Positions 17,844 to 38,860 of a stretch of 64,000 bases of DNA are shown here, in pieces. Each line of letters begins with the position of its first letter. Positions within the stretch are counted from its first letter, which is position 1. A program made the position numbers and the translations under genes. Source of the DNA: Limihaloglobus sulfuriphilus (GTDB taxonomy: Bacteria > Planctomycetota > Phycisphaerae > Sedimentisphaerales > Sedimentisphaeraceae); NCBI RefSeq assembly GCF_001999965.1, contig NZ_CP019646.1, positions 2,604,001 through 2,668,000 of the forward strand, read 5' to 3'. Below the pieces are notes generated by a model. The model made no database searches and was not told the origin of the DNA. It was given only the letters and a program-made list of their open reading frames with translations.

Positions 17844-18425
17844 TTACAGCGTGCCTTTCGTGCTGGGTATATCGTCGGATACCACCCTTACGGCCTTCCG
17901 CAGCGACTGGCCAAGGCTCTTAAAAACCGCCTCTGCGATGTGGTGGCTGTTGGTGCCGTACCGCACATTAACGTGGAGATTCAGTCTCGCGTTGTTGACC
18001 ATCGCCCGCAGAAACTCCTCGATAAGCTCTGTGTCGAAAGTGCCGATCTTCTCCGTCGGATACGCCGCGTTATACACACAAAACGGCCGCCCCGAAAGGT
18101 CTATCGCCGTTTCAGCCAGAGCATCTTCCATCGGCACAGCACTGAAACCGTACCTGCGGATACCCTTCTTGTCGCTGAGCGCCTTATCGATACAGCCGCC
18201 CAGTGCAATGCCGACATCCTCTACAGTGTGGTGGTCGTCTATCTCGTAATCGCCTTTGGCTGATATGTTTATATCAATGCCGCTGTGCTTGCTCAGATGC
18301 GCGATCATGTGGTCAAGAAAGCCGACACCGGTATTTATATCGTAGCGCCCCTCACCGTCAAGATTGATGTTGAGTTTTATATCTGTCTCGTTTGTCTTGC
18401 GTTTTATTTCTGCTGTTCTGTCCAT
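17844..18425 (-). CDS. hisB: Imidazoleglycerol-phosphate dehydratase
   Basis: This 193-residue monofunctional IGPD catalyses the sixth step of histidine synthesis. Metal-binding His clusters are visible in GFLDHMIAHLSKHSGIDI, DDHHTVEDVGIALG and HVNVRYGTNSHHIAEAVFK. It lies 32 bp behind hisC on the same strand, so both are probably expressed together. No phosphatase domain is fused to it. Confidence 0.97.
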   Translation of the reverse strand: MDRTAEIKRKTNETDIKLNINLDGEGRYDINTGVGFLDHMIAHLSKHSGIDINISAKGDYEIDDHHTVEDVGIALGGCIDKALSDKKGIRRYGFSAVPMEDALAETAIDLSGRPFCVYNAAYPTEKIGTFDTELIEEFLRAMVNNARLNLHVNVRYGTNSHHIAEAVFKSLGQSLRKAVRVVSDDIPSTKGTL

Positions 18426-18457: not shown

Positions 18458-19507
18458 TTACAAGATATTTTTCAGTGCTTCTATAAGTTTTTCGTTCTGG
18501 CGGGCCGTGCCGACGGTGATTCGCAGCCGCTCGCTTATCTCCGGATCGCTGAAGTATCTGACATAGATATTTTTATCACATAATTTTTTATATATTGTTT
18601 CAGCGTCGCCGCCAGCGGGTTTTACAAACAGAAAATTGGTGCTGCTTTGCGGCACATCAAATCCCAGCCCCCGGAGCTGCTGCGCCAGCCATTCGCGCTG
18701 CTCTATTATCCCGGCTACATTCTTTTTGAAGTACTGCCGGTCCTGTATCGCCGCGTTTGCCGCGGTCTGGGCGAGGGTGTCAACGTTATAAGAATCCTTG
18801 ACCTTGAGCATACCGGAGATCAGTGATTCATCAGCGATGCCGAAGCCGAACCGTATTCCAGCCAGCGAATAACCCTTGCTCATGGAACGCAGTATTATTA
18901 CATTATTGTATTTTTTGACCAGCGAAACGCAGTTATCTTCGGCGAAATCCACATAAGCCTCGTCAACAAGCAGCACAGAGCGGCCATTGAGCTTTTGGGC
19001 AAGCTCCTCTATCTGTGCCGGCGGGATAAACGCCCCCGTCGGCGCGTTGGGGTTGCAGACGATCACCATTCCGGCGTTTTGCGAGGCGAGCTGCTCTGTC
19101 TGCAGACCGCCCTTGTCTGTGAACGGCACCTCAATTACCCTGCAATCCTGTATCTGCGCCAGCACACGGTAAAGCGTGTATGTCGGCGAGGCATAGACCA
19201 GCGGCCGCCCGCCGTCACAGAAGCTCCGCAGGCATATCGTCAGCAGATCATCACCGCCGTTGGTGCAGATTATGTTTTCCGGCTTGACATCAAGTACCGC
19301 CGCGGCGGATTTACGGAATTCATCGCCCAGCGGCCTGGGGTATCTTCGCAGTTTTTCCGGATCTATTGCCGCCAGCGCCTCGAGCACCTTCGGCGATGGA
19401 GGATAGGGGTTCTCATTGGTATTGAGCTTAACGACATCCGGATTTTCCGGCTGAAAACCGGGCACATATCCGGCGGCCGCCTCGATATTGCTGCGGAAAT
19501 ACGCCAT
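18458..19507 (-). CDS. hisC: Histidinol-phosphate aminotransferase
   Basis: This 349-residue PLP-dependent class I/II aminotransferase transfers an amino group between glutamate and imidazole-acetol phosphate. The PLP lysine lies in ILRSMSKGYSLAGIRFGFGI, preceded by VDEAYVDF. The N-terminal LNTNENPYPPSPKVLEAL and the C-terminal RITVGTARQNEKLIEAL are typical. Its start overlaps the accD stop (TGATG), showing translational coupling of a histidine gene to a fatty-acid gene. Confidence 0.96.
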   Translation of the reverse strand: MAYFRSNIEAAAGYVPGFQPENPDVVKLNTNENPYPPSPKVLEALAAIDPEKLRRYPRPLGDEFRKSAAAVLDVKPENIICTNGGDDLLTICLRSFCDGGRPLVYASPTYTLYRVLAQIQDCRVIEVPFTDKGGLQTEQLASQNAGMVIVCNPNAPTGAFIPPAQIEELAQKLNGRSVLLVDEAYVDFAEDNCVSLVKKYNNVIILRSMSKGYSLAGIRFGFGIADESLISGMLKVKDSYNVDTLAQTAANAAIQDRQYFKKNVAGIIEQREWLAQQLRGLGFDVPQSSTNFLFVKPAGGDAETIYKKLCDKNIYVRYFSDPEISERLRITVGTARQNEKLIEALKNIL

Positions 19508-20358
19508 CAGTAGCCCTTCCCGAAATAGTCGATGAGCCGGGCTATCTCGCCGCGGAGCTCACGCCGGTCAACGATCATATCCACAAAACCGTGCTCCAGC
19601 AGGAACTCACTTGTCTGGAAACCCTCCGGCAGGTCAACATTTATCGTCTGTTTGATTACACGCGGGCCGGCAAAGCCGATAAGCGCTTTTGGCTCGGCGA
19701 TTATCACATCGCCCAGCATCGCGAAACTGGCGCTCACGCCGCCGGTTGTCGGGTCTGAGAGCACGCTTATAAACAGCCCCTTAGCCTCATCGAGCCTGGC
19801 AAGTGCGGCGGAGGTTTTCGCCATCTGCTGAACGGAGATTACGCCCTCGTGCATTCTCGCACCGCCGGAACATGAAACGCAAATAAAGGGCAGGTTCTTT
19901 TCCATCGCGGCATCAACCGCACGGCAGAATTTCTCGCCGACAACCTCACCCATTGAGCCCATAAGGTAGCTGGGGTCCATAACTGCCAGTATGACGCGGC
20001 GGCCGCGGATAAACGCCCGTCCGGTCCTGATTGCCTCGATAGAGCCTGTTTTTTCGCGGTCCTGGGCGGCACGTTCGGCGTAGGTGGTGCCGCGGAAGTG
20101 GAAATTCAGTGGGTCTGAAGTGGTCAGCATCGCGTCAAATTCCTCGAAACTACCCTCATCGGCAAGCTGGCTGATACGGGTTTTCGCGTCGATACGGAAA
20201 TGATACGCGCAGTGGAGGCATACCTCTCTATTTTCCTTAACCTTCTTGCGGAAAAGGGTTTCCTTGCATTGCGGGCATTGAATCCATACGCCCTGAGGCA
20301 TTTCTTTACGCGGCTGCAGCGAAAAGCCGCTCCATGTCATTTTTGCCTTTTTAGCCAT
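19507..20358 (-). CDS. accD: Acetyl-CoA carboxylase carboxyltransferase subunit beta
   Basis: This 283-residue subunit of acetyl-CoA carboxylase moves the carboxyl group from biotin to acetyl-CoA in fatty-acid synthesis. The N-terminal zinc finger is intact (QCPQCKETLFRKKV, then CLHCAYHFR). The crotonase-like carboxyltransferase core contains CVSCSGGARMHEGVISVQQM and DPTTGGVSASFAMLGD. It heads the run accD-hisC-hisB-ispF. accA is not in the window. Confidence 0.97.
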   Translation of the reverse strand: MAKKAKMTWSGFSLQPRKEMPQGVWIQCPQCKETLFRKKVKENREVCLHCAYHFRIDAKTRISQLADEGSFEEFDAMLTTSDPLNFHFRGTTYAERAAQDREKTGSIEAIRTGRAFIRGRRVILAVMDPSYLMGSMGEVVGEKFCRAVDAAMEKNLPFICVSCSGGARMHEGVISVQQMAKTSAALARLDEAKGLFISVLSDPTTGGVSASFAMLGDVIIAEPKALIGFAGPRVIKQTINVDLPEGFQTSEFLLEHGFVDMIVDRRELRGEIARLIDYFGKGY

Positions 20359-20746: not shown

Positions 20747-20840
20747 CTACGGTTTGGGCAAAGCAAAGTCTGGTCCCGCAGCACCAACGGTGCGAAATAT
20801 CATAGCATAGGGCACCGCCCTATGTGTATATGCGTTAATG

Positions 20841-20889
20841 TCCCTTGCCTGACCCGCACCGCCGCCGCCAGTGCGGGTCAGGCAAGGGA
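20841..20889. repeat. 49-bp palindrome with 19-bp perfect arms
   Basis: The left arm TCCCTTGCCTGACCCGCAC is the exact reverse complement of 20871-20889. The loop is the short GC run CGCCGCCGCCA. It is too far from any gene end to be an obvious terminator. Confidence 0.75.
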
Positions 20890-20908
20890 TGTACGGCGAT
20901 TCAGCTCC

Positions 20909-20953
20909 CCAGGGCGTTGCCCTGGGCTATGATATTCAAGCCCTTCAGGCTTG
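20909..20953 (+). repeat. GGGCTATG-type dispersed element, copy 1
   Basis: The 45-base unit runs CCAGGGCGTTGCCCTGGGC, TATGATATTCAAGCC, CTTCAGGCTTG. It contains CCAGGGC/GCCCTGG and CAAGCC/GGCTTG hairpins. A diverged inverted copy lies at 21954-21997. Confidence 0.65.
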
Positions 20954-21034
20954 AGAAAGTCTTGTTATTAGATAATATACATGATGTACTTAAGAAAAAG
21001 ATCTTTCACCCCTTTCATCCCCCCTTTACTTTAC

Positions 21035-21797
21035 TCAGGACCAGGTGACTTTGATATAGACAGTTCCGGTTTCATCGTCAATGATAACATTGCCCCAATT
21101 ATGAGAATCCTTTGCAGGGATTTCATATCGGCGGCCTTTCTTTCTGATCATCGGTCTATACCACTGCGGCAAATGACCACCTATATGGCAAATGACCACC
21201 TATATGGTAATATGAATGTTTACAATGTTCCAAAAACTCCTGGTCGGTCTCAAAATCATCTTTTTCGGGATAAGGCATATATTGTTTTTCAGGAGAAAAC
21301 AGTTCCGGCTCAATGCCTTTTAAGCTTGGAGAATCTGCTATAAATTTTTCTATATCTTCCGGGTCGGCTTTGAACATCATGTAGTCATCCCCGGTAAACA
21401 TACTGCTCCAGCCTTCAGCTTTTACGCCAAAAGCTGATTCAGGAAGTTGAGCCAGTCTTCCGTCTTCGATTATAGATTGCGGGTCTCTATCTTTTAAACC
21501 AGATGGAAACGCTACCAAGAACATGAACACAATAAATAAGATAAATCTGAGAAAACTTATTGAGGATGTCACAATTCCGGCTATTGCAAAACCGCGGCCG
21601 GCGAATATCCCTGCACTCTTTTTTATTTTTCTCAGTGCAATGATTCCGGCAATCAGCCCAGATATGGCCAACAGAAAGTCTAAAAAAGGAATAAAAAGAA
21701 CAAAAAACACTAAGGATAACACCCCAAGTATCATTGAAATAATAGAAAGTTTCAGGGTATTCTTTTGTGGTTTAGGCTCGAGTTCAATGCTTTCCAT
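21035..21797 (-). pseudogene. DUF4190-like membrane protein, C-terminus frameshifted by a 19-bp duplication
   Basis: The intact frame starts at 21797 and stops at 21156 after 213 residues. It has two or three membrane helices (residues 17-52 and 68-95; IFAGRGFAIAGIVTSS is DUF4190-like), then a soluble part ending ...YYHIGGHLPYRWSFAAVV. A tandem 19-bp duplication at 21168-21205 shifts the frame. Removing one copy continues the protein as HLPQWYRPMIRKKG, then RYEIPAKDSHNWGNVIIDDE and TGTVYIKVTWS, stopping at 21035. The restored protein would have 247 residues. So the present gene has probably lost its last 39 genuine residues. Function is unknown. The shortened form may still be made. Confidence 0.75.
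21168..21205. repeat. 19-bp perfect tandem duplication
   Basis: GGCAAATGACCACCTATAT occurs at 21168-21186 and again at 21187-21205, followed by GG that would begin a third unit. Its length is not a multiple of three, so it shifts the reading frame of the gene that contains it. Confidence 0.95.
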
Positions 21798-21953
21798 ATT
21801 TTTCCTTTGTAAATATATATAAAAGATTTACATCTCTTCTTATTATAGAAAGTAATATATGCAAAACTGTAAACAAAGTAAAGCCTAAAACCACAGAAAA
21901 CAACCCCTGCGGCTGTAAAGAATATCGCCGATTGATATTTGAGGCATATTCCC

Positions 21954-21997
21954 CAAGTCTGTAAGGCTTGAATAACATAGCCCCGGCGACGCCCTGG
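21954..21997 (-). repeat. GGGCTATG-type dispersed element, copy 2
   Basis: Read on the minus strand this is CCAGGGCGTCGCCGGGGC, TATGTTATTCAAGCC, TTACAGACTTG. It matches 20909-20953 with about seven differences. It lies between the glycosyltransferase end and the DUF4190-like gene. Confidence 0.6.
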
Positions 21998-22010
21998 AAA
22001 TCCGTTTCGT

Positions 22011-22721
22011 TTAAATTCGGCGGAATTTCCAAAGCGAAATCAATGTTTTGAATCCATCCCTTATGACCGAGACGCTTGAGCGGGGATCGTTGTGCCAGGT
22101 AACGGGTTTTTCCTGAATCTTAAGCCCCAGATGTGCCGCTCTTACGAGTATTTCGATATCAAACTCGAATCCTTTTGATATCAGAGGCTCAAAAAGCGAT
22201 CTGGCGGCGTCGGCAGTAAAAAATTTAAACCCGCACTGCGTGTCATGATAGGGCAGATGGTCTATCCAGAGTGTGCACAGATAAAAACACTTGCCCAGCA
22301 GCCAGCGGTAAAACGGCTGGCGGCGGGTTATGTTAGATTCGGGCAGACTCCGGGAACCTATAACTACATCCGCCCTGCTCTCGGTTAGAATTTGCGTGAA
22401 AAGGGGAATCTCTTCCAACGATGTCGAACCGTCAGCATCCATAAAACCGATAATCTCGCCCTTTGCTGCCAGTACGCCGGTGCGTACAGCGAAGCCCTTG
22501 CCCTGATTCTTTGCATAACTTATTGTAGATACAATACTTGAATCGATAGAAGTCTTTACCTTCTCCTCGGTGTTGTCGCTGCAGCCGTCGCAAACAACGA
22601 TCACCTCCGTCAGGTTGACGGCAGGATTTGCAGCGGCAAACTCGAGCAGCTCACTCACCGTTCGGACGATGCGGTCACTTTCGTTGTATGCCGGTATTAT
22701 GATTGAGAGCTTTGCCTGCAT
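22011..22721 (-). CDS. Family 2 glycosyltransferase (polyprenyl-phosphate type)
   Basis: This 236-residue GT-A glycosyltransferase begins SIIIPAYNESDRIVRTVSEL. It contains the nucleotide-sugar motif GFMDADGSTSLEEIPLF and the acceptor segment DTQCGFKFFTADAA. The pattern matches dolichyl- or polyprenyl-phosphate sugar transferases. Unlike many of them it lacks C-terminal membrane helices. It probably loads a lipid carrier with hexose for envelope glycan or protein glycosylation. No partner gene is adjacent. Confidence 0.88.
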   Translation of the reverse strand: MQAKLSIIIPAYNESDRIVRTVSELLEFAAANPAVNLTEVIVVCDGCSDNTEEKVKTSIDSSIVSTISYAKNQGKGFAVRTGVLAAKGEIIGFMDADGSTSLEEIPLFTQILTESRADVVIGSRSLPESNITRRQPFYRWLLGKCFYLCTLWIDHLPYHDTQCGFKFFTADAARSLFEPLISKGFEFDIEILVRAAHLGLKIQEKPVTWHNDPRSSVSVIRDGFKTLISLWKFRRI

Positions 22722-38318: not shown

Positions 38319-38584
38319 GTACAATCCGAACATGTCACAGACGTTTTCGGCAATTATACTTTTCAAAACACATGTAACTCATTGCAATAAAACATGTTGT
38401 ATCTTAAAAGAGATCAAACCCTTTTAATTCTTCAAATTTCTTTTCTTTATACACGTATAATCCGCCTGTTAAAAGAGCATAAATCAGATACAGACTAATT
38501 GTTATCAGAAATATGATTTTAAGTTTTTTCATTTGCAGCCGCCTCCATTGTCTGGTGGAAAAACAGGAAAAACAGGGAAAAACA
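38319..38584. other. AT-rich spacer, nothing recognised
   Basis: No gene with a ribosome binding site is seen. A GGAAAAACAG unit is repeated three times in tandem just before the first long repeat (38556-38587). Confidence 0.5.
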
Positions 38585-38860
38585 GGGGACAGTTACCAAT
38601 TAAATTTGTATTTTTATTCTTTTTTTGCATCCTTGCCTTTCTTTTTAAGTATCTTTGGCCTGCCGACGGTAATGGCCGCAGCCGACTGCCTGCCTGCTTT
38701 TCCATTTTACTCTTAAACGAATCTGAGACAATCCTGCATTTGCGTCACAAACTCACCACTGCAATTTTAATACTTTATAAACCTATACTTAGAATACCAC
38801 GCCCGCGGCCCGTGTCAATAAAAAACGCGGCAAACCGCTTCTAAAAGGGTAACTGTCCCC
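38585..38860. mobile_element. MITE-like element, copy A
   Basis: The 276-bp unit has 13-bp perfect inverted ends GGGGACAGTTACC and GGTAACTGTCCCC. It is about 95 percent identical by eye to copy B at 39535-39811, in the same orientation. It has no intact transposase; a short frame on the minus strand reads RPLPSAGQRYLKRKARMQKK but has no clear meaning. Ends of this type occur on repeats mobilised by REP-associated (RAYT) or similar transposases; the link is uncertain. Confidence 0.75.

Follow-up and report, generated by a model that had tools for sequence, protein, structure and literature searches.

The window analysed here, a 64,000-nt stretch of the Limihaloglobus sulfuriphilus genome, contains a minus-strand gene for a small membrane protein of 213 residues, and a 19-bp sequence near its stop codon is doubled. 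The locus thus raises the question of whether the stop codon marks the natural end of the protein or is set by the doubling and, in the latter case, whether the doubling is a single lesion or a device for turning the end of the protein on and off. The original prediction proposed a recent truncation of a membrane protein and suggested that the repeat could act as such a switch.

Structure and uniqueness of the repeat

Analysis of the sequence confirmed the exact doubling at 21168-21205: GGCAAATGACCACCTATAT (plus-strand reading) is present as two letter-perfect, head-to-tail copies, at 21168-21186 and 21187-21205, with no gap between them. The periodicity runs for 2 further bases (GG, 21206-21207), giving a total of 40 bp. 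In TRF, the pair had a score of 80, the highest among 25 rows for the window, with 100% matches and 2.1 copies. A scan of the whole genome (3,868,357 bases, up to 2 mismatches) returned two matches to the 19-bp unit, both in the pair, which ruled out a dispersed repeat. Chance was ruled out using shuffled sequences: at up to 3 mismatches, the expectation for the window was 0.05 matches (mean of 100 dinucleotide shuffles), and 5 mononucleotide shuffles of the window were free of exact tandem duplications with periods of 14-59.

We also surveyed tandem duplications in 464 kb of the genome, comprising the window and 20 segments of 20 kb each taken from elsewhere (400 kb). Four exact tandem duplications of period 10-300 were found, two of which had a period of at least 15: the 19-bp pair and a 25-bp duplication at L062:8075. 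Short tandem duplications are therefore sporadic in the 464 kb examined, and no class of switching loci is present there. The 25-bp duplication (L062:8075-8133) spans the stop codon of an MscS-like gene, named from reading its translation, and apparently leaves the protein unchanged.

Effect on the reading frame

Because 19 is not divisible by three, the gene changes frame where it passes through the two adjacent exact copies, which lie inside its coding sequence. The features of the gene are as follows.

21803-21808, minus strand: AAAGGA, a putative Shine-Dalgarno-like sequence 5 nt ahead of the ATG
21156-21797, minus strand: present open frame, 213 aa and a stop codon, starting with ATG at 21797-21795; encodes the truncated membrane protein
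21537-21746, minus strand: DUF4190 (PF13828) membrane domain, residues 18-87; E 9.6e-13, 48.1 bits, cut-off 35
21186-21470, minus strand: N-terminal portion of the unnamed C-terminal domain (residues 110-204); E 5.5e-21 over profile positions 2-87
21187-21205, minus strand: first of the two repeat copies in the reading direction of the gene; HIGGHLP in the head frame
21168-21186, minus strand: second exact copy in that direction, with the frame displaced by 19 nt; HIGGHLP in the tail frame
21159-21185, minus strand: novel nine-residue end YRWSFAAVV in the shifted frame; stop at 21156-21158
21038-21166, minus strand: detached native tail of 43 codons, QWYRP...KVTWS, open and out of frame; stop at 21035-21037

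The N-terminal part of the protein belongs to DUF4190, scoring above the curated Pfam cut-off. The head and tail frames each read HIGGHLP, one per repeat copy. After the HIGGHLP of the second copy, the tail frame gives 43 residues, QWYRPMIRKKGRRYEIPAKDSHNWGNVIIDDETGTVYIKVTWS, and its stop codon accounts for the boundary at 21035 in the original prediction. With the repeat counted once, the head (204 residues) and the tail (43) make up 247 residues, as predicted; the accompanying figure of 39 extra residues needs correction, as 43 tail residues are lost and replaced by 9, a net change of 34 with respect to the 213-residue form. In alignment A1, YRWSFAAVV had little in common with the homologues except for an aligner-matched RW. 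A promoter and terminator scan yielded 10 promoter-like sites, as compared to 3.0 in shuffles, and 1 terminator-like site, as compared to 1.5; these sites were given no weight.

The displaced tail is a family C-terminus

The head and the tail were searched separately in 59 genomes, consisting of the window's own and 58 relatives. The head matched 28 of the 59 genomes, its own included (27 of the 58 others). In G025, a genome of the same order and another family, the match had 31% identity over residues 19-207 in a gapped alignment; G052 and G037 were matched over the C-terminal part. The other head matches listed were confined to query residues 4-122, for the most part the DUF4190 segment; they were not treated as orthologues.

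The tail matched the C-terminus of the G025 protein with 64% identity (E 6.3e-18), and this match adjoins the head match inside one intact open frame of 284 codons. The match to G052 was weak (37%, E 6.6e-4). Using the tail as a single query, G037 was not found even at E 1; its tail was recognised from its own reading frame and from alignment alone. At E ≤1, 19 of the 59 genomes matched the tail, own included, with G025 and G052 the only others below 0.001. The remaining matches were taken for chance, except that in G058, which was also found by the profile described below. From the KH/GH before the repeat to the WYRP after it, the window protein and the G025 protein each have 17 residues, ungapped, when the repeat is counted once (the alignment being read across two window rows).

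The tails of the window gene and G025 were further compared over 38 codons in two ungapped blocks, leaving out HIGGHLP, PAKD, and the last S. In this comparison, 27 residues were identical, 16 of them through different codons, and the differences at first, second, and third codon positions numbered 10, 7, and 23, respectively. These values indicate that selection maintained the tail during most of the period since the window gene and G025 diverged. The tail is still open and carries no second lesion; on the basis of one genome, this is compatible alike with a recent event, with an artefact, and with a tail still used at times.

Distribution of the C-terminal domain

The C-terminal domain is also present in other genomes of the same class. 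A profile, A2, was built from the G025, G052, and G037 proteins, which match it by construction, and was run on the window's own genome and 297 others of the class (298 in all); in some of them, scoring was limited to 14 of the first-look candidates. Fourteen genomes, including the window's own, had a match. The own genome gave two matches, one from the head frame (profile positions 2-87) and one from the tail frame (positions 90-135, E 1.8e-11). Outside it, 14 matches occurred in 13 of 297 genomes. Eleven of these (10 genomes) contain at least part of the domain together with the tail in a single open frame, reaching at least position 131; 9 begin at positions 1-4, one (G288) at 25, and one (the second G052 gene) at 45. 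Eight of the 11 are independent of the profile, the other three being G025, G052, and G037. The tail consensus is W.....R..GRRYEI..D.....GEVIVDDE.N.VYV.

The other three outside matches comprise a pair of short variants and a tail fragment. The variants, in G134 and G040, are short ORFs of 149 and 156 codons whose final residues are tail-like by eye. The fragment, in G058 (L048:148-297), is the tail alone: its frame of 50 codons follows immediately on an in-frame stop, and no head was identifiable in the upstream contig sequence of 147 bases. It may be the remnant of a further broken copy.

Exact tandem duplications of period 8-100 were absent from all 14 homologous frames, and the same test on the window gene found the 19-bp pair only. 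Relatives thus hold the downstream part in frame without the duplication. Indeed, the tail match in G025 and the single-frame profile matches rule out the possibility that the orthologues end at the 213-residue form. The claim that the duplication truncates a membrane protein was accordingly borne out: a gene with a DUF4190 domain is frameshifted, and its out-of-frame tail is the C-terminus of a family.

The unnamed domain spans approximately 135 residues (window 21038-21470; loci L036-L046 without L044, and L050) and, by eye, is attached to N-terminal segments of different kinds in 10 of the other genomes in the class. While the window protein shares its N-terminal domain with DUF4190 proteins, its C-terminal domain is below all Pfam and NCBIfam cut-offs (searched with NCBIfam for the window pieces, G025, G052, and G037 only). 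Profile A3 gave three weak matches to solved structures (best E 0.27), and the best PADLOC match was to a 2TM effector model (E 0.012, membrane segment only); neither was credited. No named homologue of the window protein or the G025 protein was found in genome contigs, a collection that may lack records close to the window's own genome; neither there nor among the 59 genomes did a second isolate turn up. The plasmid collection contained no match, and we found no literature on DUF4190 together with planctomycetes. A by-product of the analysis is thus an unnamed domain spread thinly over the class (13 of 297 other genomes).

Finally, the window gene had no match in the four genomes of the same family that were searched, two of which are single-contig and 98-99% complete. 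For this reason the gene looks accessory and there is no close relative with which to date the duplication.

Origin of the truncated form

We consider it probable that one slippage-type duplication of 19 bp recently truncated an accessory gene, yielding a loss-of-function (pseudogenising) allele. The duplication would have arisen in the 3' part of a gene for a small membrane protein composed of DUF4190 and the unnamed C-terminal domain. In the ancestral state, GG would have stood on either side of the single unit, a homology of 2 bp, and the likely route is strand slippage or a template switch over these 2 bp during replication. The frameshift would have swapped the conserved 43-residue tail for nine unrelated residues and, judging from the loss of the conserved tail only, very probably destroyed or strongly impaired the function of the C-terminal domain. 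The 213-residue form might still be made and working.

Replication slippage that gives rise to short tandem-duplication frameshifts is a general class of bacterial mutation. The 19-bp pair shares with this class the exact head-to-tail copy, short end homology (GG), frame-shifting length, and origin in a single event, and has no noteworthy difference from it. The mutation is thus of a well-known kind, and the best reading is one of ordinary gene decay or a strain-level allele. As to its age, the identical copies from which a recent event had been proposed, together with the open tail and the lack of a second lesion, make recency plausible rather than established.

The same open tail, free of other lesions, would be expected of an assembly or culture artefact, in which the strain itself would carry a single copy or the duplication would have been born in the sequenced culture. 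We judge this unlikely: the genome is one contig, 99.97% complete, and an extra exact 19-bp copy in otherwise unique sequence is untypical of sequencing errors.

We also weighed the proposal of a reversible phase switch, in which expansion and contraction of the 19-bp unit would maintain a selectively favoured population of tail-on and tail-off cells. In phase-variable contingency loci with simple sequence repeats, the number of repeats decides the frame; the known bacterial loci of this type are many-copy short tracts. The 19-bp pair is similar in that repeat number sets the frame, and its frame-shifting unit length, its perfectly identical copies, and a tail that stays open without added lesions would suit a switch. 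However, it differs in consisting of only two copies of a long unit rather than a multi-copy hypermutable tract, no second such locus occurs in the 464 kb, and no variant was seen. Moreover, none of the 14 homologous frames has a tandem duplication, and as reversion at some rate is open to any exact tandem duplication, reversibility alone is insufficient.

Tandem duplications in ssp1 of fission yeast offer a comparison. A review on fungi describes these as reversible, microhomology-mediated tandem duplications inside the gene that cause a premature stop (PMC13207564). As presented there, they resemble the 19-bp pair in lying within coding sequence, in producing a premature stop, and in being reversible in principle. 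They differ in that the organism is a eukaryote and reversal is described, whereas the homology at the 19-bp pair is 2 bp only and reversal was not seen. The review leaves room for a switch while lending no support to one at this locus. Overall, none of our results supported the predicted on/off function, and we regard a selected phase switch as improbable. The specific version, a low-copy, microhomology-born reversible switch toggling a conserved tail in a free-living bacterium, appears more improbable still. If it were true that the pair toggles, the switch would be built from just two copies.

It is very improbable that the truncated 213-residue protein is a functional, selected version in this lineage with a dispensable tail: although the frame still covers the membrane domain and the greater part of the C-terminal domain, the tail is better kept with respect to G025 than the head (64% versus 31%), tail and domain share one frame in most outside matches (11/14), and the nine new residues share little but RW with the homologues.

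The gene should be annotated as frameshifted, and its short product should not be taken as a natural form. The locus is a clean case in which relatives reveal that a tandem duplication, and not a natural end, sets the stop.

Genomic surroundings

The neighbours of the window gene appear to be housekeeping genes. They are as follows, with names based on reading of the translations, not on family searches.

17844-18425: hisB-like
18458-19507: hisC-like
19507-20358: accD-like
22011-22721: glycosyltransferase-like

Intergenic, imperfect palindromic elements flank the gene on both sides, at 20770-20965 and 21915-22050, in partly inverted orientation. The first of these contains a hairpin at 20841-20889 with two 24-base arms that are 92% complementary and separated by 1 base. 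Stretches similar to the elements occur at L068:8280-8467 (95% over 57 bp, part of the element) and L065:17510-17573 (77%). The elements look like REP-type repeats. The genome has five matches to Y1_Tnp (PF01797) over the cut-off, and a connection between these genes and the flanking elements would be a guess. Elsewhere in the window, a 10-bp unit, GGAAAAACAG, is present in 3.2 tandem copies at 38557-38587.
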